Assembly: GCA_021806165.1 (NCBI GenBank) | Contig: JAJZXY010000013.1 | Coordinates: 1 to 64,000, forward strand | Source: Thermoplasmata archaeon | Lineage (GTDB): Archaea > Thermoplasmatota > Thermoplasmata > Sysuiplasmatales > Sysuiplasmataceae | Direction: 5' to 3' | DNA length: 64,000 nucleotides | Shown here: piece by piece, positions 19,981-33,008 of the stretch | Layout of the letters: the number at the start of each line of letters is the position of its first letter | Position numbering within the stretch: position 1 is the first letter of the stretch | Program-made: the position numbers and the translations under genes | The notes under the pieces: model-generated | What the model was told of the DNA's origin: nothing | The model's input: the letters and a program-made list of their open reading frames with translations, nothing else | Database searches by the model: none

Positions 19981-20002
19981 CAGTCGTTTATAATTGCAAA
20001 CT

Positions 20003-20362
20003 ATGAGCGCTTCGCCATATCTACCGGTGCTGATATTTGCAGTGATTTCAGTCCTGTTTGTGATGGTGAGTTTTGTTGTTTCTGCACTTCTCAGGCCGAC
20101 GAAGAGGGAGCCTCTCAAGGAGACCACCTATGAATGCGGCGAAGTGCCTATAGGCGACACCAGGATACAGTTCCATTTCCAGTACTACATGTTCGCCCTG
20201 ATTTTCGTGATAGCAGATGTTCTTACAGTCTTTCTGGCGCTCTGGGCTCTTGACTTCCAGCCCGGTTTTTCCCCTGTGAATATACTGATGTTTGTATTCA
20301 CCGGGCTGCTCGTGGCAATAGTCCTCTACGCTCTGAAGAAGGAGGAACTGATATGGATATAG
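20003..20362 (+). CDS. nuoA: NADH-quinone oxidoreductase-type complex I subunit A
   Basis: Membrane subunit at the junction of the peripheral and membrane arms. 119 residues with three helices; the conserved cytoplasmic/loop segment KREPLKETTYECGEVPIG includes the ECG motif of the family. An in-frame TTG at 19994 exists, but ATG 20003 fits the TATA box. First gene of the operon; its end overlaps nuoB by 10 nt. Confidence 0.93.
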   Translation: MSASPYLPVLIFAVISVLFVMVSFVVSALLRPTKREPLKETTYECGEVPIGDTRIQFHFQYYMFALIFVIADVLTVFLALWALDFQPGFSPVNILMFVFTGLLVAIVLYALKKEELIWI

Positions 20363-20943
20363 AGAGGGCAAAGATGCGCGCTGAGGGAAATGCGCCGAGC
20401 GCCATTGCAATGTCACAGGACACATTCATGAAGTGGAGCGACGAGGTGTCCCAGATGATAAAGCAGCGCTCCGAGATCCGCCAGATGAAGCCCAACAGGC
20501 TGACGGGCGGAGTTTTCAACTGGGCAGCGCGCAATGCCCTCTATCCTCTCCATCTCGGAATTGCGTGCTGCGCAATTGAAATGGCTGCGGCAGCGGCCCC
20601 GAGGTTCGATGTCGAGCGCCTCGGAGTAATATTCTGGAATTCACCGAGGCAGTGCGATGTGCTGCTTCTCAACGGATGGATTTCGATGAAGCTCAAGCCT
20701 GTCCTAACAAGGCTCTACGAACAGATGCCTTACCCCAAATGGGTTATATGCATGGGTGAGTGCACAATATCCGGGGGGCCCTGGTGGGACTCATACAACA
20801 TAGTGAGGGGGGCAGACACTTTCCTGCCTGTCGACATATACATACCTGGGTGTCCTCCACGACCAGAGGCGCTGCTTGACGGCATACTGAAGCTGCAGCA
20901 GAAGATCAGGACTCAGAAAGAGAAAGTGCTCCTCCCGCAGTGA
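20353..20943 (+). CDS. nuoB: Complex I subunit B
   Basis: Holds cluster N2, the last [4Fe-4S] centre before quinone. Ligands are seen in GIACCAIEM (tandem Cys), ICMGECTISGG and PGCPPRPE. 196 residues, with a N-terminal extension of about 45 residues (including ALMKWSDEV-like helical sequence) before RLTGGVFNWAARNAL. Overlaps nuoA and is followed 9 nt later by nuoC, as in other archaeal operons. Confidence 0.96.
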   Translation: MDIERAKMRAEGNAPSAIAMSQDTFMKWSDEVSQMIKQRSEIRQMKPNRLTGGVFNWAARNALYPLHLGIACCAIEMAAAAAPRFDVERLGVIFWNSPRQCDVLLLNGWISMKLKPVLTRLYEQMPYPKWVICMGECTISGGPWWDSYNIVRGADTFLPVDIYIPGCPPRPEALLDGILKLQQKIRTQKEKVLLPQ

Positions 20944-20952
20944 GGTGCAGCG

Positions 20953-21558
20953 ATGTCAACTCCCACACCCACGATCGTTGCCTCCAAGGAAGACCGTGAC
21001 TATTCAGGCCTCGGGATCAAGGCGGAGAGGTCAGTTGAGGACATAGTCTCCGCCATCAAGGAGAAGTTCCCGGGGATAGATGTCAAGGTAAAGAAGGCAG
21101 GAAGGATAGAATGCAGCAAGTTCCCCAGGGAAAAGATTGTGGAATTCTGCACATTCCTCAGGGATTCTCTCTATTTCGAACATGCAACATGCGTTGCGGG
21201 CAATGACCTGAAAAGGAGCTGGGAGGTAATCTACCACCTGAGCTCGTACAGGAACAGGTGCATGCTTCAGATACGCTCCGAGCTGCCTAGGGATGACCCG
21301 TCCATAGACTCCGTGAGCAGGATATGGGGCGGCGCGGACTGGCATGAGCGCGAAACATATGACATGTACGGGATAGTTTTCAACAACCATCCTAAGCTGG
21401 AAAGGGTCCTGACACCCGAGGGCACCGACTTCTTCCCCTTCAGGAAGGACTTCAAGCTCCTTGACCACTGGAAGATCGACTGGGAGAACAAGGGAAAGCG
21501 CCCGCCTCCGCAGCCAATGGCCTCCACAGACACCAGGTTTGGTGATAACAACGGCTGA
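20953..21558 (+). CDS. nuoC: Complex I subunit C
   Basis: Peripheral-arm subunit that packs against NuoD. The core pattern WHERETYDMYGIVFNNHPKL followed by RVLTPEGTDFFPFRKDF is the family signature (30 kDa subunit). 201 residues. The stop is within the likely start region of nuoD, so the two are coupled. Separate from NuoD, unlike the NuoCD fusion of enterobacteria. Confidence 0.95.
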   Translation: MSTPTPTIVASKEDRDYSGLGIKAERSVEDIVSAIKEKFPGIDVKVKKAGRIECSKFPREKIVEFCTFLRDSLYFEHATCVAGNDLKRSWEVIYHLSSYRNRCMLQIRSELPRDDPSIDSVSRIWGGADWHERETYDMYGIVFNNHPKLERVLTPEGTDFFPFRKDFKLLDHWKIDWENKGKRPPPQPMASTDTRFGDNNG

Positions 21559-22633
21559 GATGTGGATTAATATGGGGCCTCAGCACCCCTTCACCCACGG
21601 GCTCTGGACGCTGAAGGTCAAGGTGGACGGCGAAACAATCATCGACGCCGAACCAATCATCGGCTATCTGCACAGGGGATTTGAGAAGCTGTGCGAGAAC
21701 AGGAACTACCCGCAGATAGTGCCAATCTGCGATCGCCTGTGCTACGTGGCATCGATGAGCTGGGACCATGTCTATGTGTCGGCCGTCGAGGACACATTCG
21801 ATATCAAGGTCCCCGTCAGGGGCGAATACATACGGGTCATTGCACTGGAGATACAGCGCATAGCGTCCCACCTGATTTGGCTTGCCTCCTTCATGACCGA
21901 CCTCGGCAACCTGACAGCATTCCTCTATGCGATGAGGGAGAGGGAGATGTTCATCGACCTTCTCCAGGCTCTGTGCGGGGCGAGGCTGACATACAACTAC
22001 CCCAGAATCGGCGGCGTGTCACAGGACATGCCCCGGACATTCCCGAGGCAGTGCCTCAAGGCTCTCGACCTTTTCGAGAAGAGGCTGAAGGAGTATGAAT
22101 ATCTCATAGAGGAGAGCGAGGTCTTCCGCATAAGGTCGGAGGGTGTCGGCTACCTCAGGCCATCAGATGCTATGAATCTCGGCGTCACGGGCCCTGCCCT
22201 CAGGGGGAGCGGCGTTCCTGTCGACCTGAGGCGGACAGAACCCTATTCAGCCTACCCAGACTTCGATTTTGAGGTCGCGGTGGAGAAGGGGTGCGATGTT
22301 TTTGCCAGATACCGGGTCCGCATAAAGGAGATGTATGAGAGCTGCAGCATAATCAGGCAGGCGCTGAAGAAGATGCCCCCGGGCCCGGTGCTCGGAAAGG
22401 TGCCGAGGCACTTCCCGCGCGGGGAGGGATATGCCAGGACGGAGGATCCGAGGGGGGAGGCATTCTTCTACATACAGGCAGACGGGACAGACAGGCCATA
22501 CAGGGTCAAGATAAGGAGCCCGATATTCGTTACAGTCTCGGCAGCCCCGTCGATACTGCGCGGCTACAAGATCGCCGATGTGCCGTCGATTATGGGGAGT
22601 CTGGACATGTGCCTAGGAGAATCGGACAGGTGA
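21542..22633 (+). CDS. nuoD: Complex I subunit D
   Basis: Forms the quinone-binding pocket with NuoB and descends from the large subunit of [NiFe] hydrogenase. The signature NMGPQHPFTHGLWTLKV is present with Phe where Ser is common, then GYLHRGFEKLCENR and SHLIWLASFMTDLGNLT. The open frame extends to 21461 but that part only mirrors nuoC in another frame. GTG 21542 (VITTAEMWINMGPQHP) overlaps the nuoC stop and is preferred; ATG 21560 is possible. One nucleotide separates it from nuoH. Confidence 0.94.
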   Translation: MITTAEMWINMGPQHPFTHGLWTLKVKVDGETIIDAEPIIGYLHRGFEKLCENRNYPQIVPICDRLCYVASMSWDHVYVSAVEDTFDIKVPVRGEYIRVIALEIQRIASHLIWLASFMTDLGNLTAFLYAMREREMFIDLLQALCGARLTYNYPRIGGVSQDMPRTFPRQCLKALDLFEKRLKEYEYLIEESEVFRIRSEGVGYLRPSDAMNLGVTGPALRGSGVPVDLRRTEPYSAYPDFDFEVAVEKGCDVFARYRVRIKEMYESCSIIRQALKKMPPGPVLGKVPRHFPRGEGYARTEDPRGEAFFYIQADGTDRPYRVKIRSPIFVTVSAAPSILRGYKIADVPSIMGSLDMCLGESDR

Positions 22634-22634
22634 T

Positions 22635-23672
22635 ATGCTGAACTACCTATACTCAATACCCAACACAATCGCCACAGCTATACTCTCAGTCCTGCACATC
22701 AACCTGCCCCAGCTGAACTATCTGCTGACTTGGGTCATTGCATCCATAGTGCTCATCGTGGTGGTGATGGTAAATGTCATCATATTGATATACGTCGAAA
22801 GGAAGCTTCTCGGGAGGTTCATGGACAGGAGGGGTCCTTTTGTGGTGGGCCCAGCAGGATTCTTCCAGAACTTCGCCGACGCGTTCAAGTTCCTTGTAAA
22901 GGAGATGATCCTCCCTGAGAATGCAGATTCCCTGGGTTTCAACAGCACTCTCGTCATAATCGTGGCATCATCCCTCCTGATAATGACTGTGGTGCCGCAG
23001 GCGCCCAATTTCTTCTTTACGGACCCTGAGCTGAGCCTCCTTCTCGCCTTTGCAATCTTTGCAATAGAGCCGTTCGCAGTGGTCATCGCGGGGTGGGCAT
23101 CCAACAACAAGTACTCGCTTCTTGGAGGATTCAGGTCAACCGCACAGATGATGAGCTATGAGGTGCCAATGCTCATCACCGTGGTTTCTGTTGTAGTGCT
23201 CGCCGGCTCATTCAATTTCAGGGACATAGTAAACTTCCAGGCCGGCCATGTCTGGTTCGTAGTACCGCTCATAATAGGTTTCATAGTCTTTCTGATATCA
23301 ATCGTAGCCGAGATTGAGCGCATTCCTTTTGATACTCCGGACGCGGAGGCAGAACTTGTCCACGGCTGGATGACAGAGTACGCGGGCATTAAGTTTGCAC
23401 TCTTCCAGCTCACATCATATGTGCGCTCGTTCGCAGGGGCCGCGATCATGGTTCTCATATTCCTTGGCGGCTGGACAGGACCTTTCCTGCCGCCTGTGGC
23501 ATGGTTCTATATCAAGGTCTATGCAGTGTTCGTCCTCTTTGTCTGGATGAGGGCATCGCTGCCAAGGGTGAGGATAGACCAGATACTGAACCTCGGATGG
23601 AGGAGTCTCCTTCCGCTCTCCCTTGTCAATATACTCATAGCTGCACTGCTCAGAATTAGCGGGGTGTTGTGA
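22635..23672 (+). CDS. nuoH: Complex I subunit H
   Basis: Membrane subunit that links the quinone cavity to the proton channels. About eight helices; conserved loops YVERKLLGRFMDRRGPFVVGP, FFQNFADAFKFLVKE and ERIPFDTPDAEAELVHGW are all visible. 345 residues, normal. Directly followed by nuoI with no spacer. Confidence 0.96.
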   Translation: MLNYLYSIPNTIATAILSVLHINLPQLNYLLTWVIASIVLIVVVMVNVIILIYVERKLLGRFMDRRGPFVVGPAGFFQNFADAFKFLVKEMILPENADSLGFNSTLVIIVASSLLIMTVVPQAPNFFFTDPELSLLLAFAIFAIEPFAVVIAGWASNNKYSLLGGFRSTAQMMSYEVPMLITVVSVVVLAGSFNFRDIVNFQAGHVWFVVPLIIGFIVFLISIVAEIERIPFDTPDAEAELVHGWMTEYAGIKFALFQLTSYVRSFAGAAIMVLIFLGGWTGPFLPPVAWFYIKVYAVFVLFVWMRASLPRVRIDQILNLGWRSLLPLSLVNILIAALLRISGVL

Positions 23673-24443
23673 ATGCCTGATAGTAAAAAGAAGAGAAGAG
23701 TGGGCCTGCTGGATTATGCATTCAAGCCGATGTGGATTTCCCTCCGCACGCTTATCAGGACCTCCCTTGCAGGCGGAAAGCCGAACACAGTCCTCTACCC
23801 GGAGGAGAAGCTCGAGCTTCCCGATGACTTCAGGGGGGAGCTCGGCCTTGTCATGGACAGGTGCGTCGGGTGCGAGTCCTGTGCCAGAGTCTGCCCCAAC
23901 AAGTGCCTTGACATGATGGAGGACGACCTTGGCAACGGCGTATCGAAATGGATGCCTGCGCTGGACCTTGCGCAGTGTATGTTCTGCGGCCTCTGCGTCG
24001 AGGCCTGTCCATCGACAGCTCTCCACATGACCAACAGGTATGAGACTGCCACGCAGGACAGGAATGACAAGATATTCAGGCCGCATGAGTGGGCCATAAA
24101 GCCGGAGGAGGCGCCGGACCAGCATCCGTTACCTTACCCAGAGCTGTATGAGATAAACTGCACGGGCTGCGGTGCCTGCGATAGGGCGTGCCCGCACGAC
24201 GTCATCGACATGATGAGCATTCCCGGCACTGCCAAGAAGAGGCCGAACGGCACATTCGGTCCCGAGAAGAAGATTCCTCTCTTCGACTATGAACTGTGCG
24301 TCAGCTGCGCACTTTGCGTGGACGCATGCCCGTTCGATGCTCTTGAAATGCTGCCCAGGAGCACGACGGCCAGTGATCCTGTGGTCCAGATAGATATCCA
24401 GCCGCGGGCGGGGCAGCAGAGTAATCAGGAAGTGTCTGTTTGA
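23673..24443 (+). CDS. nuoI: Complex I subunit I with four [4Fe-4S] motifs
   Basis: NuoI passes electrons toward NuoB and normally has two CxxCxxCxxxCP motifs in a protein of 140-180 residues. This one has 256 residues and four: C64-C67-C70-C74, C102-C105-C108-C112, C163-C166-C169-C173 and C209-C212-C215-C219. The first pair, after the amphipathic N-terminus (WISLRTLIRTSLAGGKPNTV), corresponds to normal NuoI; the second pair looks like an added ferredoxin domain joined by a linker of about 50 residues. Because NuoE, NuoF and NuoG are missing from the operon, the extra domain may be where a soluble donor hands over electrons; this is inference. The stop overlaps the TTG of nuoJ. Confidence 0.93.
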   Translation: MPDSKKKRRVGLLDYAFKPMWISLRTLIRTSLAGGKPNTVLYPEEKLELPDDFRGELGLVMDRCVGCESCARVCPNKCLDMMEDDLGNGVSKWMPALDLAQCMFCGLCVEACPSTALHMTNRYETATQDRNDKIFRPHEWAIKPEEAPDQHPLPYPELYEINCTGCGACDRACPHDVIDMMSIPGTAKKRPNGTFGPEKKIPLFDYELCVSCALCVDACPFDALEMLPRSTTASDPVVQIDIQPRAGQQSNQEVSV

Positions 24444-24694
24444 GCATAGATCTGATAGGTTTCATCCTGGTCGCGGCCGCAACCCTGGTGCTGTCGGTGA
24501 TGATGGTTCTCTCGAAGGAGATAGTTCACAGCGCGCTCTATTTTGCCGGCCTGCTGATAGGCATTGCGCTGATATTCTTCCTTCTGAACGCAGTCTACGT
24601 CGGCATCATACAGATACTGATATACGTGGGCGCTGTCGTCGTTCTGATACTCTTCGGTATAATGCTGACAAGGCGCGACATACTCCTGGGGTGA
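24440..24694 (+). CDS. nuoJ: Complex I subunit J, N-terminal part
   Basis: 84 residues with three membrane helices, equal to the first half of a NuoJ subunit: VLSKEIVHSALYFAGLLIGIAL, then YVGIIQILIYVGAVVVLILFGIML. The conserved helix-3 residues needed for coupling are in this half. The start is TTG 24440, overlapping the nuoI stop (TTGA). The remaining helices are in the next gene. Confidence 0.88.
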   Translation: MSIDLIGFILVAAATLVLSVMMVLSKEIVHSALYFAGLLIGIALIFFLLNAVYVGIIQILIYVGAVVVLILFGIMLTRRDILLG

Positions 24695-24698
24695 CCAA

Positions 24699-24938
24699 GT
24701 GGCAAAACAGGACAGGCGGCTCGCATTTGCAGGCATTGTTTCGTTCCTACTCTTCATAGTTATGCTCGCGGCCTTCTACCCGGTGAACTGGTCATTCGTG
24801 GGGAGCACGGTTGTTGACACAGCTCTGCTGTCACAGCAGATGTTCAACCCCGGCGGTTACGGTGTCACCCTGCTCGTTGTGGCTGTTCTGCTCGGCGCCT
24901 CGATGGTCGGCGGCGTATACCTTGCAAAGGAGGAGTAA
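24699..24938 (+). CDS. Complex I subunit J, C-terminal part
   Basis: 79 residues with two helices (about 10-27 and 54-74) ending VVAVLLGASMVGGVYLAKEE, equivalent to helices 4-5 of a single-chain NuoJ. It starts at GTG 24699, 4 nt after the first half. Split J subunits are also known in the related Fpo complex (FpoJ-N/FpoJ-C), so this is an established architecture rather than damage. The GGAGGAG at its 3' end serves as ribosome binding site for nuoK. Confidence 0.82.
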   Translation: MAKQDRRLAFAGIVSFLLFIVMLAAFYPVNWSFVGSTVVDTALLSQQMFNPGGYGVTLLVVAVLLGASMVGGVYLAKEE

Positions 24939-24940
24939 AG

Positions 24941-25255
24941 CTGATACCTGTCTCATATGTGCTCGGATTTTCAGCTCTTCTGTTCGCGATAGGGGTCTTT
25001 GGCGTCCTTTACAGGCGCAACGCCATCATGGTCCTTCTGTCGATTGAGCTCATGCTCAATGCGGCCAACATAAACTTTGTCGCCTTCTCCAACACGGCCG
25101 GCAGCGCTGCGGCTGCAGCGAACGGCCAGGTGTTCGCGCTCATCTCCATAGCGGTGGCAGCCGCCGAGATTGCGGTCGGACTCGCCATACTGCTCGTCCT
25201 CTGGAAGGCCAGGGATACGATTGAAGTCAACGAAGTAGCGACGCTGAGGTGGTAA
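24941..25255 (+). CDS. nuoK: Complex I subunit K, probable CTG start
   Basis: Three-helix antiporter-like membrane subunit with conserved glutamates in helix 2 (LSIELMLNAANI) and helix 3 (AAEIAVGLAILL). The first standard start in frame is GTG 24959, but this would remove the family N-terminus. Reading from CTG 24941 gives (M)IPVSYVLGFSALLFAIGVFG, matching the usual MIPxxxYLxLSxxLFxIG, and GGAGG (24929-24933) sits 7 nt before the CTG. The GTG has no such site. The gene would begin 2 nt after the previous stop. Confidence 0.85.
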   Translation: MIPVSYVLGFSALLFAIGVFGVLYRRNAIMVLLSIELMLNAANINFVAFSNTAGSAAAAANGQVFALISIAVAAAEIAVGLAILLVLWKARDTIEVNEVATLRW

Positions 25256-25256
25256 G

Positions 25257-27296
25257 ACGGACCCGTTCCTGCAGTATGCATCACTGATAGCAATATCGCC
25301 TTTCATCGGCTTTGCGATCATTTCGGCCATTCCCTCCTCGAGGGCGAGGCTTATTGAATGGATAAGCGTCCTGTCCGTCGGCGTCTCGGCCGCCGTGTCT
25401 CTCCTCATACTCTACTTTGAATTCACAGGCAACGGCGCAGGCATCTACCCGGCCGCCTTTCAGCAGCACATAGCCTTCCTGAATCTCTCGCAGCCCGGCA
25501 GCACGGGTGCGGTGCTCAACCTCGGCATCTATGTGGACTGGCTCACAGTGGTCATGGTTGCAGTAGTCTCATCCGTCAGCCTGCTCATCGTGATATACAG
25601 CGTCGGGTACATGCACGAGGAGGGGCGCAGGAGAAAGCGCTTCTTCGGCGTCCTGTCGATGTTCGTCGGCTCCATGCTCGGCCTGGTCCTTGCAAACAAC
25701 CTGCTTGAACTCTACCTCTTCTGGGAGCTTGTCGGCCTCGGCTCCTACCTGCTGATAGGATTCTGGTATGAGAAGCCGTCCGCTGCCAGGGCCGCAAAAA
25801 AGGCATTCGTGGTGACAAGGTTCGGCGACATGTTCCTTCTCTTCGGCATCGTGCTGCTTCTGAACATAGGGCAGCACACGCTGTCATATTCGCAGCTCTT
25901 CAGCCCGGGCTCGATATCGGCTCTGAACGGCTCGGGTCTGCTCACAATAGCAACGCTCGCGCTCTTCGGCGGCGCAATGGGCAAGAGCGCCCAGTTCCCG
26001 CTTCACGACTGGCTGGTGGATGCAATGGAGGGTCCGACGCCAGTCTCGGCTATGATACACGGCGCAACGATGGTCAACGCAGGCGTCTACCTGGTCGCAA
26101 GGATATATCCTCTTTTCACCCAGACGCCCGCGAGCGCCCTGTTTGTGTCGTTCATAGGCGCATTCACCGCCCTCTTTGCGGCGACCATGGCCCTTGCCAC
26201 ATATGACATAAAGAGGGTCCTGGCCTTCTCGACAATAAGCCAGCTTGGCTACATGTTCATGGCTCTGGGCGCCGGCGCCTACATACTGAGCTCCACCGGT
26301 CCGGCCACGCTTGGTTCGCCCAACTACTCCCTGGGCTATTCCGCAGGAATGTTCCACCTGGTCAACCAGGCCATTTTCAAGGCTCTGCTCTTCCTGGCCG
26401 CGGGCAGCGTAATGCATGCCATGGGGGGCATACAGGACATGAGGCAGATGGGCGCGCTGCGCTCGAAACTTAGAATCACATCCGTCACCATGCTCTTCGG
26501 CTCGCTCTCCCTTGCAGGCATAATACCTTTCAGCGGCTTCTTCAGCAAGGATGCCACTCTCGAAGCAGCCTTCGGCGGCATATCCTACTCCTGGGTATTC
26601 GCTCTGATATGGCTCTTCGGCATTGCAGCCGCCTTCCTCACCGCCCTGTACATATTCAGGCTCTGGTTCATGACATTCACCGGGAGCTCAAGGGTGCCCG
26701 AGGGCGTCCACGTGCATGAGTCGCCAGCTGTAATGACAGGGCCGCTTGTAATACTGGCCATCCTCTCACTCGTCGTCGGCTTCTCAGTCCTCGGCGTGGC
26801 TGGTTTCGGTATGGCTGTGCACTACCCGATCACATTTGCATCCGGTGTGCTCACATCTGCCGCCACCCCATACACACAGTTCGGCGGCGTGCTGGGGCTG
26901 CTTGCAGACCCGCTCACATACCTTTCGCTTGCGCTGGCATTCGGCGGCGCGTTCGTGGCATACTCAGTCTGGTACAGGGAGAGGAGCATGGAGGCGTTCA
27001 TGTCAAAGCCTGTTCCCAGGCGCATCTTCCACATTCTTTCCGAGCGCTACTACTTCCCGCAGGCTTATGACAGGATCGGGATGTGGTTCGGGTATGGCAT
27101 CTCCCGCGGCCTGGACTACTTCGACAGGAAGGGCGTCGACGGCCTGATAAACGGCGTCGGTGCGTTCTTCATGGGCATATCGCAGAGGATAAGGAAGTCC
27201 GAGACAGGCTTCGTGCAGAGTTACGTTTCAGTGATAGTTGTGGCCGTCATAATCATCGTTGCACTGCTGCTCTTCTATCCCGTGCTGGGGGTCTGA
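25257..27296 (+). CDS. nuoL: Complex I subunit L, probable ACG start
   Basis: Largest proton-pumping antiporter-like subunit, about 680 residues with some fifteen helices and a C-terminal lateral helix. Conserved: WELVGLGSYLLIGFWYEKP, lysine and glutamate in the channel, HDWLVDAMEGPTPVSAMIHG. No ATG, GTG or TTG occurs between the upstream in-frame stop (25245-25247) and GTG 25395, yet the translated stretch before it, DPFLQYASLIAISPFIGF and onward, is clearly the first helix of NuoL. ACG 25257 lies 5 nt after GAGGTG (25246-25251) and gives MDPFLQYASL; CTG 25269 is the other candidate. The C-terminus is followed by nuoM after 3 nt. Confidence 0.9.
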   Translation, partial: TDPFLQYASLIAISPFIGFAIISAIPSSRARLIEWISVLSVGVSAAVSLLILYFEFTGNGAGIYPAAFQQHIAFLNLSQPGSTGAVLNLGIYVDWLTVVMVAVVSSVSLLIVIYSVGYMHEEGRRRKRFFGVLSMFVGSMLGLVLANNLLELYLFWELVGLGSYLLIGFWYEKPSAARAAKKAFVVTRFGDMFLLFGIVLLLNIGQHTLSYSQLFSPGSISALNGSGLLTIATLALFGGAMGKSAQFPLHDWLVDAMEGPTPVSAMIHGATMVNAGVYLVARIYPLFTQTPASALFVSFIGAFTALFAATMALATYDIKRVLAFSTISQLGYMFMALGAGAYILSSTGPATLGSPNYSLGYSAGMFHLVNQAIFKALLFLAAGSVMHAMGGIQDMRQMGALRSKLRITSVTMLFGSLSLAGIIPFSGFFSKDATLEAAFGGISYSWVFALIWLFGIAAAFLTALYIFRLWFMTFTGSSRVPEGVHVHESPAVMTGPLVILAILSLVVGFSVLGVAGFGMAVHYPITFASGVLTSAATPYTQFGGVLGLLADPLTYLSLALAFGGAFVAYSVWYRERSMEAFMSKPVPRRIFHILSERYYFPQAYDRIGMWFGYGISRGLDYFDRKGVDGLINGVGAFFMGISQRIRKSETGFVQSYVSVIVVAVIIIVALLLFYPVLGV

Positions 27297-27299
27297 AAC

Positions 27300-28856
27300 A
27301 TGTTTCCTCTGATATCGCTGATGATACTGGTACCGTTCATTGGATTCGCACTGCTTCTGGTCCTTCCAGCAAGGCTGGAGATGAACAGGCTGGTGGGCGC
27401 ACTGTTCAGCGGCATCCCGCTTGTGCTTGGTGTCTACATGCTGCTTGCCTTCAATTATGGCAATCCGCAGATGCAGATGACTGAGCAGTACACTTGGATA
27501 AGCACGGCATACTTCCCGATAACATACTCTGTGGGTGTGGATGGCATAGCACTGCCCATGGTCTTCCTCTCCGTCCTGCTCTCCTTCCTTGTAGTCATAT
27601 TCTCATGGGATGTGAAGGCAAGGTCCAACCAGTACTTTTCAATGATACTTCTGACGGAGGTCGGTGTCATAGGCGTGTTCACCGTGACGAACTACTTCAT
27701 CTTCTACCTCTTCTGGGAGGCAGTCCTCATACCCATGTTCTTCATCATACTCGTCTGGGGTTCCCCGAGGCGCGTATACTCAGCCACCAAGTTCTTCATC
27801 TACACACATGCGTCGAGCCTTGTCATGCTCCTCTCCTTCTTCGCCCTCTACTTCCAGTACCACAGCTACGTGGTGGCGCACCCATCGCTCAACCTGCCCG
27901 CATTCAGCTTCTCCATGTCGGTCATCAACCAGGTCTCCCCGCTCTTCCCGCAGTTCTTCCAGATCATCGTCTTCGTAGGGCTCTTCTTCGGCTTCATTGT
28001 CAAGATGCCTGTATTCCCCTTCCACACATGGCTGCCGGATGCACACACCGACGCACCCACGGGGGGCAGCGTCCTGCTTGCAGGCCTCCTGATAAAGATG
28101 GGCTCCTTCGGTATAATCAGGATAGCAATACCTGCTCTTCCCGCTGGTGCCAAGATGATCGAGGACTGGATCGTGGTTCTGGCAGTGATAAGCATCCTCT
28201 ACGGGGCATGGGTCAGCCTTGCCCAGAAGGATATCAAGCGGATGATAGCCAATTCATCCATCAGCCATATGGGTCTGGTGCTTCTTGCCATTGCTGCATC
28301 GGTGTTCACACTCAACCTGTCCACGGGCCGCATGAACACGCTGGGCATAGCCGTCGCGGACTTCCAGATGTTTGCCCATGGCCTCATCACGGCTGTCCTC
28401 TTCATGTCGGCAGGCGTCATACAGCACCATGCCGGAACAAGGGAGATGGACAGGCTGAGCGGACTGGGAAGGCACATGCCAATGCTCTCCACCTTCATGC
28501 TTGCGGGCTTTCTTGCCTCACTCGGCCTGCCGGGCATGGTGGGATTCGTGGCGGAGTTCAGCGTCTTCTATGTGACATACCTGAGCTTCAACGTATACCT
28601 GCTAATCCCGATTCTGACCGTGGTGATAACTGTGGGTTACTACCTGTGGGCGCTGCAGCGCACCATCTACGGACCCGAGTCAGACAAGCTGGATTTCAGC
28701 ACCATTCACGACTCCAACTGGTATGAGATAGTGCCCATGGGCATACTGGTGATAATAATCATAATCTTCGGGATAGTACCATGGGTGATTTTCAACCCGA
28801 TTAACAGCGCGGTGCCACTGTGGTACCACTACTTCCTCGGGAGGGCGATTCCATGA
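27300..28856 (+). CDS. nuoM: Complex I subunit M
   Basis: Second antiporter-like subunit, 518 residues, about fourteen helices. Conserved segments include YFIFYLFWEAVLIPMFFII (channel Glu), KMPVFPFHTWLPDAHTDAPTGGSVLLAG and QKDIKRMIANSSISHMGLV. The stop overlaps nuoN (ATGA). A long plus-strand frame inside it (27494-28726) is only a shadow. Confidence 0.95.
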   Translation: MFPLISLMILVPFIGFALLLVLPARLEMNRLVGALFSGIPLVLGVYMLLAFNYGNPQMQMTEQYTWISTAYFPITYSVGVDGIALPMVFLSVLLSFLVVIFSWDVKARSNQYFSMILLTEVGVIGVFTVTNYFIFYLFWEAVLIPMFFIILVWGSPRRVYSATKFFIYTHASSLVMLLSFFALYFQYHSYVVAHPSLNLPAFSFSMSVINQVSPLFPQFFQIIVFVGLFFGFIVKMPVFPFHTWLPDAHTDAPTGGSVLLAGLLIKMGSFGIIRIAIPALPAGAKMIEDWIVVLAVISILYGAWVSLAQKDIKRMIANSSISHMGLVLLAIAASVFTLNLSTGRMNTLGIAVADFQMFAHGLITAVLFMSAGVIQHHAGTREMDRLSGLGRHMPMLSTFMLAGFLASLGLPGMVGFVAEFSVFYVTYLSFNVYLLIPILTVVITVGYYLWALQRTIYGPESDKLDFSTIHDSNWYEIVPMGILVIIIIIFGIVPWVIFNPINSAVPLWYHYFLGRAIP

Positions 28857-30364
28857 TTGACTACCTTCCCGGCGGAATGCTGCCCATAATCGTGATGATA
28901 CTGGGCTCGCTGCTGATCGCGGCAATTTCATTCTGGGTCTCCAACAGGGTTCTCGCCTCAGTTTCCATCGCAACAATGCTGGTCACATTTGCACGCCTTT
29001 TCATCCTGCTGAGCCAGCCATCCCTGCTTGGGCAGTCCTTCGGAGGCGTCCTGACCGAGGATGCTTTCGCTGTCGTGTTCCAGCTGATATTCCTCTCTGT
29101 GGCCTTCATAGCCGTCCTCTATTCGGTCAAGTACATAGACGACGACAGGAACCAGGGGGAGTATTACAGCCTTCTCATGCTGTCCGTCGTGGGAATGATG
29201 GTTGTTGCAGCCTCAACCGACCTCCTGACAATGTTCGTGGGCATTGCGCTGACAGGACTTGCAAGCGCCTCAATAACGGCGTTCAGGAAGCATGACAGGA
29301 CGGGCGCCGAGGCGGCGATGAAGTTCTACATCGTCAGCGCCCTTTCAGCCGGCCTGGCACTCTACGGCATCTCTCTTGTTTATGGCCTTGCTCACTCGCT
29401 GCAGTTCTCCGCCGTCTCCGCATACTTCGCCAGCAATGTCACCCCATCCAGCCCCGAGTTCGGGACTGCTATGCTTGCAATGGTCCTGCTCATAGCAGGC
29501 TTCGGGTTCGAGATAGCACTCGTCCCGTTCCACATGTGGGCCCCGGATGTGTACGAGGGTTCGCCCACGCCGGTTTCAGGTGTGCTCACCTCCGGCTCAA
29601 AGAAGGTGGGCATAGCAGCCCTGTTCAAGATTTTCGTAATCGCGCTCATCGCCTTCAGGGCGGAGTGGGGACCGCTCTTTGCCGTGCTCGCCATCCTTAC
29701 AATGACGCTCGGCAACGTTGCCGCTCTGAGGCAGCAGAACGTCAAGAGGATGCTCGCCTATTCAAGCATAGGCCAGGCGGGGTACATGCTCATCTCCCTC
29801 CCCGTCTTCGCGGCTGCCATGTCTGACCCGTCCTCATACGGCTCGCTGGCCACCCTCTCAATATCATACGGCATCTTCCAGATTATGACGCACTCAATTG
29901 CAACCGTGGGTGCCTTCGGGATTGTTGCCGTGATGTCCACCAGCATAGCAGGGCCGGACGTCGACGGCTTCAGGGGACTGTTCAAGTCGAACAAGATACT
30001 GTCTCTGTCAATGACCATATTCCTGTTCTCGCTGCTTGGCATGCCACTGCTCGCTGGTTTTGACAGCAAGCTGCTTATATTCTCGGCGGCAGTCGGCGGC
30101 TCGCTGATTTCAGGCTACTCATGGCTCATATGGCTGGCGGTATTCGGCATTCTGAACAGCGCAGTCTCTCTGATATACTACATCAGGGTGGTGCGCAACA
30201 TCTATACCGACACCGGGACACCCGCGCCCGCTTTCCGGCTCCCCCGCCTCTCGCTGCTCGCAATACTCATTGCGGCTGTCGCTGTTGTGGTGATAGGCGT
30301 CTATCCTGACCCGTTCATAACGGCATGCAACCATGCGGCGCAGGCGCTTATGTCCGAATTGTGA
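28853..30364 (+). CDS. nuoN: Complex I subunit N
   Basis: Third antiporter-like subunit, 503 residues from ATG 28853, which overlaps the nuoM stop as ATGA. Landmarks: FVGIALTGLASASITAFRK, GFGFEIALVPFHMWAPDVYEGSPTPVSG and QQNVKRMLAYSSIGQAGYML. Last gene of the complex I operon; a new TATA box before rps13 follows about 15 nt downstream. Confidence 0.95.
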   Translation: MIDYLPGGMLPIIVMILGSLLIAAISFWVSNRVLASVSIATMLVTFARLFILLSQPSLLGQSFGGVLTEDAFAVVFQLIFLSVAFIAVLYSVKYIDDDRNQGEYYSLLMLSVVGMMVVAASTDLLTMFVGIALTGLASASITAFRKHDRTGAEAAMKFYIVSALSAGLALYGISLVYGLAHSLQFSAVSAYFASNVTPSSPEFGTAMLAMVLLIAGFGFEIALVPFHMWAPDVYEGSPTPVSGVLTSGSKKVGIAALFKIFVIALIAFRAEWGPLFAVLAILTMTLGNVAALRQQNVKRMLAYSSIGQAGYMLISLPVFAAAMSDPSSYGSLATLSISYGIFQIMTHSIATVGAFGIVAVMSTSIAGPDVDGFRGLFKSNKILSLSMTIFLFSLLGMPLLAGFDSKLLIFSAAVGGSLISGYSWLIWLAVFGILNSAVSLIYYIRVVRNIYTDTGTPAPAFRLPRLSLLAILIAAVAVVVIGVYPDPFITACNHAAQALMSEL

Positions 30365-32177: not shown

Positions 32178-33008
32178 ATGGAGATAGAAGTCAGGGAGAT
32201 GAATGACAATTTCGCCAGGTTCGTACTCAGCGACGCCTCACCTGAGCTGGCCAACAGCCTCAGGCGCGTACTCGCTTCGGAACTGCCCAAGATGGCAATA
32301 CACAATGTCGAGTTCCACCTCGGCCCCATAATGGGTGAGGACGGGAAGGAGTTCGAGAGCGTCACGCCTCTCTTCGACGAGATGATTGCCCACAGGCTAG
32401 GCCTTGTCCCGCTTCCCACATACCTCGATGAATTCAATTTCAGATCCGAATGCAGCTGTAAAGGTGAGGGATGCCCCAGCTGCACCGTGATGTACTCGCT
32501 AAACAAGAAGGGTCCGTGCACCGTCTATTCAGGCGACCTCGAGCCTCTCGGAAGCGACAAGTTCAGGGTCAGGGACGAATTCATACCAATAGTCAAGCTG
32601 GGGCCCAACCAGGCAATACTTGTTTATGCGACAGCCGAGCTCGGCAGGGGAAGGGAGCATGCCAAGTTCCAGGCGGTCCAGGCACCCGGCTACAGCTACT
32701 ATCCGGCCATCACATTCAACTATGACAAGTTTGACGCGTCCAGGTTCGACGTCTCCTGCTGTCCTGTCAGGATCCTGGAGAAGAAGGGCGGCAAGATTGA
32801 TGTCACCGACATTGAGAAGTGCACTCTCTGCCAGGCCTGCGCGGACAGCGCTCCGAAGGGGGCAATAGCTGTCACAGGAGACGAAACCAAATTCGTCTTC
32901 AGGTTTGAAACCGACGGTTCGCTTTCAGCAGCCTCCGCCCTTTCAAAGGCCGCCGACATACTTGAGAAGATGTCGGAGGAGCTTGCGAAGAAAGTATCAT
33001 CGCTCTGA
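32178..33008 (+). CDS. rpoD: DNA-directed RNA polymerase subunit D
   Basis: Archaeal homologue of Rpb3 and the alpha N-terminal domain; forms the D-L platform for polymerase assembly. The dimerisation motif ANSLRRVLASELPKMAIHNVEF is near the N-terminus. A ferredoxin-like insert has CTLCQAC and an upstream CCP: enough ligands for one [4Fe-4S] cluster, while the second cluster's ligands are absent (CADSAP where a full motif has CxxxCP). 276 residues. Last gene of the operon; its end overlaps the convergent HAD gene by 12 nt. Confidence 0.96.
   Translation: MEIEVREMNDNFARFVLSDASPELANSLRRVLASELPKMAIHNVEFHLGPIMGEDGKEFESVTPLFDEMIAHRLGLVPLPTYLDEFNFRSECSCKGEGCPSCTVMYSLNKKGPCTVYSGDLEPLGSDKFRVRDEFIPIVKLGPNQAILVYATAELGRGREHAKFQAVQAPGYSYYPAITFNYDKFDASRFDVSCCPVRILEKKGGKIDVTDIEKCTLCQACADSAPKGAIAVTGDETKFVFRFETDGSLSAASALSKAADILEKMSEELAKKVSSL

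Follow-up and report, generated by a model that had tools for sequence, protein, structure and literature searches.

A four-cluster NuoI in the complex I operon without nuoEFG of a Ca. Sysuiplasmatales archaeon

The window analysed here, a stretch of 64,000 nucleotides from a relative of Ca. Sysuiplasma in the order Ca. Sysuiplasmatales (Thermoplasmatota), holds a complex I operon without nuoEFG whose NuoI protein carries four cluster motifs. Four-cluster NuoI is genuine and ancient, a variant form that arose by addition. On balance, albeit with no great confidence, we favour the view that NuoI carries a covalently linked module through which electrons enter from ferredoxin. For many archaea and bacteria it is not settled where complex I lacking NuoEFG obtains its electrons, and a conserved redox module on the electron-accepting subunit, common to gut methanogens and uncultured relatives, offers a concrete and testable inlet. 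The existence of forms with two, four and six clusters also provides a natural experiment on the gain of input modules by complex I.

The nuo operon and its NuoI protein

The nuoI frame (Table 1) begins with ATG, ends with TGA and runs through 256 codons with no internal stop or frame break. The source genome harbors one copy of NuoI. Sixteen cysteines (64, 67, 70, 74; 102, 105, 108, 112; 163, 166, 169, 173; 209, 212, 215, 219) make up the four motifs that a sequence-only reading of the DNA had described in a protein of this length, and C78 is a further cysteine. A chance origin of the motifs was discarded because shuffling of the same protein did not produce two or more CX2CX2CX3C motifs in any of 100,000 shuffles. 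In a Pfam search the protein matched Fer4 (PF00037, E=1.8e-24) in four stretches and the dicluster family Fer4_7 in two, and the N-terminal part exceeds the curated NCBIfam cut-off for NuoI. Judged from sequence, residues 35-137 are a true NuoI, in which motifs 1 and 2 should bind the clusters N6a and N6b, and residues ~155-226 constitute a second, ferredoxin-like 2[4Fe-4S] module.

In the AlphaFold2 model of NuoI (mean pLDDT 81.7, pTM 0.63), confidence is high for both modules and for most of the linker, with block means of 73-95 over residues 121-230; residues 232-246 are poorly defined. The pTM value leaves the relative placing of the core and the added module loose. Fold matches of the model include NuoI chains of complex I, that of E. 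coli among them, the Fd-NDH-1L structure 6l7o, and the polyferredoxin FwdF over about 205 columns. The best single PDB sequence match of the whole protein is also FwdF (5t5i_F, E=2.6e-22).

The gene order is nuoABCDHIJJKLMN, with nuoI located between nuoH and a split nuoJ. The set of 11 subunits that defines complex I without NuoEFG (nuoABCDHIJKLMN) is thus present together, J and K by position: both nuoJ frames and nuoK are putative, as they were assigned from position and conservation rather than from family models. No nuoEFG gene lies within the operon, in agreement with the gene content previously read from the sequence. The order is identical in the relatives L010 and L011 (MAGs) and L013 (Ca. 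Sysuiplasma superficiale); in L012, whose contig begins within nuoH, it matches from nuoH onward. NuoD aligns to NdhH and Nqo4 and is of the quinone-reducing type, and the two CxxC nickel-ligand pairs of group 4 [NiFe] hydrogenases (Ech/Mbh/Hfo) were not found in its alignment. The protein does have cysteines at DRLC and LDMC, near the [NiFe] nickel-ligand sites, opposite non-cysteine residues in the NdhH and Nqo4 alignments.

Table 1. Positions in the window of the nuo genes and of the two parts of NuoI
Feature	Position	Strand	Basis
nuoA	19994..20362	+	NCBIfam
nuoB	20353..20943	+	NCBIfam
nuoC	20953..21558	+	NCBIfam
nuoD, start taken at ATG 21560; without [NiFe]-hydrogenase CxxC pairs	21560..22633	+	NCBIfam, alignment
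nuoH	22635..23672	+	NCBIfam
nuoI, 256 aa, four CX2CX2CX3C motifs	23673..24443	+	Pfam, NCBIfam (TIGR01971, 137 bits, cut-off 113.05), alignment
NuoI core, residues 35-137, motifs 1 and 2	23775..24083	+	TIGR01971 match 35-137; fold match to E. coli NuoI
Predicted added C-terminal 2[4Fe-4S] ferredoxin-like module, residues 155-226 (approximate), motifs 3 and 4	24135..24350	+	Fer4_7 match 162-223; invariant Cys; purifying selection; separate clade
Putative nuoJ, first part, 84 aa, between nuoI and nuoK	24440..24694	+	gene order conserved in relatives; position only
Putative nuoJ, second part, 79 aa, before nuoK	24699..24938	+	gene order conserved in relatives; position only
Putative nuoK	24959..25255	+	position and conservation
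nuoL	25395..27296	+	NCBIfam
nuoM	27300..28856	+	NCBIfam
nuoN	28820..30364	+	NCBIfam

Distribution and origin of the added module

Matches to the NuoI of the window at E<=1e-20 were detected in 241 of 400 genomes of the class, and frames were read for about 90 proteins, taken from those matches and from other members of the phylum. The same four motifs are found in all seven members of the order that hold nuoI. In the class, 17 of the 21 families sampled have at least four motifs (f1, f3, f6, f9, f14, f18, f19, f20, f21, f22, f23, f24, f27, f29, f30, f32 and f33), and four have a two-cluster NuoI (f10, f13, f17 and f26). Among the families sampled outside the class, four motifs are present in f38 and f54 and two motifs in ten; four-cluster proteins of the phylum that lie outside the class include L135 (genome G422) and L129-L134 (f38). 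The latter observation implies that the module is either older than the class or transferred. Hence, the four-motif NuoI that had been noted in an operon without NuoEFG is indeed there, but it is not particular to this operon: it is widespread in the phylum, methanogens included.

Family f3 goes further, with six CX2CX2CX3C motifs in L080:462-1367, L088:441-1349, L093:458-1366 and L074:1492-2397. The extra (third) dicluster module follows the core and precedes the last module. Five motifs are left in f3 where one is degenerate, and one added motif lacks its cysteines in L076, L084 and L099. Family f19 (L070, L090) shows the f3 layout with one added motif degenerate through loss of cysteines.

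Genome G145 of f6 encodes an McrA with GGVGFTQYATAAYTDN and a PylRS that is 63% identical to the sequence we take to be the PylRS of Methanomethylophilus alvi. On the strength of both proteins, f6 is assigned to the methanogenic Methanomassiliicoccales. Family f17 is presumably Thermoplasmatales-like, as it matched a proteasome alpha probe with 79% identity; an assignment of f6 to the Thermoplasmatales was rejected because that probe fits the two-cluster f17 while f6 is methanogenic. Thermoplasmatales-like and some other genomes appear, from their NuoI frames, to keep the two-cluster form. A NuoF-type domain (PF01512), which is also found in other oxidoreductases, is present in 71 genomes of the class, nine of them in families with at least four motifs (f9, f20, f22, f23, f30 and f32). 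None was detected among the sampled genomes of f1, f3, f6, f14, f18, f19, f21, f24, f27, f29 and f33.

All 16 motif cysteines are invariant across 48 aligned four-cluster proteins, which outside the order show only about 32-42% identity to the protein of the window. Between members of the order, the added module has pN values of 0.02-0.05 and near-saturated pS values of 0.63-0.87, and evolves no faster than the NuoI core; such values indicate that it is under strong purifying selection.

A tree of single modules (68 columns) sets all the added modules apart from the core modules as a single clade (support 95/82), and the module of the window falls together with the last module found in the six-cluster f3/f19 proteins (support 88/88, 55-56% identity). 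This separate clade gives no support to a model in which the NuoI core was duplicated in tandem several times over. It points to one old acquisition, and a single gain of the dicluster module at an early stage of the Thermoplasmatota is probable. On the core tree, which has few columns, the number of clusters must have changed three or four times, and either two or four clusters could be ancestral in the class. With trees of few columns, the simplest reading is that one dicluster gain was followed by another accretion in the lineage ancestral to f3 and f19 and by losses of single clusters there.

Electron donors and the role of the added module

Input subunits and donors were searched for in eight genomes of the order, the source genome being about 96% complete. 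The sequence-only reading would have been overturned by a NuoEFG encoded elsewhere in the genome; however, NuoF (PF01512), NuoE (PF01257) and NuoG (PF10588) were each found above the cut-off in 0 of the 8 genomes, while positive controls matched. PF10589 gave no match above the cut-off in these eight genomes either; a weak match in the source genome was rejected, as it falls below the cut-off and the long ORFs of the locus are ABC-transporter permeases. The FpoF/FqoF-type domain FrhB_FdhB_C (PF04432), a marker of F420H2 dehydrogenase (Fpo/Fqo), is likewise found in 0 of the 8 genomes, which makes direct donation by F420H2 through an FpoF-like subunit unlikely. In contrast with these absences, POR_N domains of 2-oxoacid:ferredoxin oxidoreductases are present in all eight, and several POR_N proteins are encoded.

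The data establish the four-cluster protein, where it sits in the operon, how strongly it is conserved, and that searches for NuoE, NuoF, NuoG and FpoF-type domains found none. That the module is an inlet, that ferredoxin is the donor and that the clusters act as one wire we infer as follows. The added module would occupy the place where NuoG would otherwise pass on electrons. Ferredoxin reduced by 2-oxoacid:ferredoxin oxidoreductases would give single electrons to it, or else a ferredoxin-linked enzyme docked at the module might be the source. Electrons would then cross the two clusters of the module and proceed through N6a and N6b to N2 and to the quinone, in a transfer that would be coupled to proton pumping.

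Several observations speak for a ferredoxin inlet: the invariant cysteines, the low pN, the lack of matches above the cut-off for NuoE, NuoF, NuoG and FpoF-type domains in the genomes of the order, the presence of POR_N in all of them, the lack of PF01512 in the sampled genomes of the eleven families listed above, and a model that is confident over linker and module and matches NuoI chains and FwdF. A further point in favour is the four-cluster form of the methanogenic f6, as the Fpo-like complex of Methanomassiliicoccales is reported to accept reduced ferredoxin. There is also evidence against. Ferredoxin use with no such module is assumed for the two-cluster NuoI of f10, f13, f17 and f26 and for the FpoF-less complex of Methanosaeta, so the module would be unnecessary for it. 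In addition, NuoEF is reportedly missing from Thermoplasmatales that have such complexes (PMC5155288); together with the two-cluster relatives, they indicate that a complex lacking the extra pair can still dispense with NuoEFG. The earlier proposal that the added pair could be an entry module for electrons fits the data and is borne out in part.

The data admit other explanations. One is that the four-motif protein is an artefact, in which nuoI and a separate ferredoxin gene were joined by an assembly or frame error, or in which the second pair belongs to a separate product. We give this a negligible chance and reject it: an uninterrupted frame of similar length is conserved in dozens of independent genomes, and a separately translated product, looked for because the sequence-only reading had raised it, gave way to a pair of motifs in the same conserved frame. 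Another is that the added clusters lie off the main path, as a structural or electron-buffering extension or as the relic of an ancestral polyferredoxin subunit. Two-cluster forms do manage without the module, and the added motif that lacks cysteines in some f3 and f19 proteins (L076, L084, L099, L070, L090) tells that single added clusters can be lost. However, the eight added cysteines are invariant in four-cluster forms across the sampled families and change in the module is as slow as in the core, and we consider an off-path role improbable.

A more serious contender, if still an unlikely one, is that the module serves as a docking or wiring site for one enzyme (HdrA-like, 2-oxoacid oxidoreductase or Etf/Fix-type) that transfers electrons directly, with no free ferredoxin. 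The multiple POR_N proteins are in line with this possibility, and the relatives of solved structure that come nearest to the module include the enzyme-wiring polyferredoxins FwdF and MvhB. An HdrA-like flavoprotein with Fe-S motifs of its own is encoded in the same genome (L002:1180-2511, G000:C24); it could be another ferredoxin-linked partner, and was counted against the ferredoxin inlet. No such partner gene is found inside the nuo operon, however, and a single fixed partner is made less likely by the fact that organisms of widely differing metabolism, methanogens and presumed non-methanogens, have the module in common.

To a wider proposition we give an even chance: in Thermoplasmatota complex I, a covalently bound 2[4Fe-4S] module on NuoI acquired once (4[4Fe-4S] in some families) would be a further input device beside NuoEFG, FpoF and the ferredoxin platform of NDH-1, and the graded series of two-, four- and six-cluster forms would record the stepwise accretion of complex I inputs.

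Comparison with known systems

NuoI/Nqo9/NdhI proteins (TIGR01971) share with the NuoI of the window the N6a and N6b motifs and the place between nuoH and nuoJ. They customarily have two clusters only, whereas the protein of the window has a further C-terminal 2[4Fe-4S] module of about 100 residues. Photosynthetic NDH-1 (NdhI and NdhS), a ferredoxin:plastoquinone oxidoreductase, is also devoid of NuoEFG and receives ferredoxin at the side of subunit I; it differs in that NdhI has two clusters instead of four. NDH-1 docks ferredoxin through extra small subunits. The polyferredoxins FwdF and MvhB are likewise strings of ferredoxin modules that serve as wires, but they have more clusters, lack a NuoI core and are not subunits of complex I.

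A close parallel is the Fpo-like complex of Methanomassiliicoccales, FpoABCDHIJJKLMN, which lacks FpoF and FpoO and has the same 11-subunit make-up with a split J (PMC4153887). Its subunit I in f6 has the same four clusters as that of the window. The two differ in order, the window coming from Ca. Sysuiplasmatales, and the module of the window is more similar to the last f3/f19 module than to that of f6. The apparent split of the window nuoJ (24440-24938) is also reported for Methanomassiliicoccales (fpoJ N and C) and Cuniculiplasma (JJ). Reduced ferredoxin is named as donor of the Fpo-like complexes in PMC7886697, PMC6019823 and PMC9478090. According to the first of these, which cites Kroninger et al. 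2016, the complex of Methanomassiliicoccales generates a membrane potential when reduced ferredoxin donates the electrons.

Complexes without NuoEFG or FpoF are described for Methanomassiliicoccales (PMC4153887), Cuniculiplasma (PMC5155288), acid-mine Thermoplasmatales (PMC3750248) and Angelarchaeales (PMC9038741). Extra clusters in subunit I are mentioned neither in the searched passages of those papers nor in the ones of PMC7886697, PMC6019823 and PMC9478090. The 11-subunit complex I-like enzymes of Desulfitobacterium, Nitrososphaerales and Ca. Angelarchaeales also lack NuoEFG, with ferredoxin as proposed donor; the available portions of PMC11238625 and PMC9038741 contain no description of a four-cluster subunit I in them. 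For complex I, the respiratory-complex passage of an archaeal fusion survey lists only B-C(-D) fusions (PMC11237513). The added module goes unmentioned in the searched text of these open papers, which discuss ferredoxin as donor; this does not prove priority.

A further cysteine-rich feature is found elsewhere in the window. A gene at 32178-33008, identified by sequence and neighbours as that of RNA polymerase subunit D, encodes a ferredoxin-like insert, CTLCQACADSAP, which comes near to a full CX2CX2CX3C motif but does not complete it.
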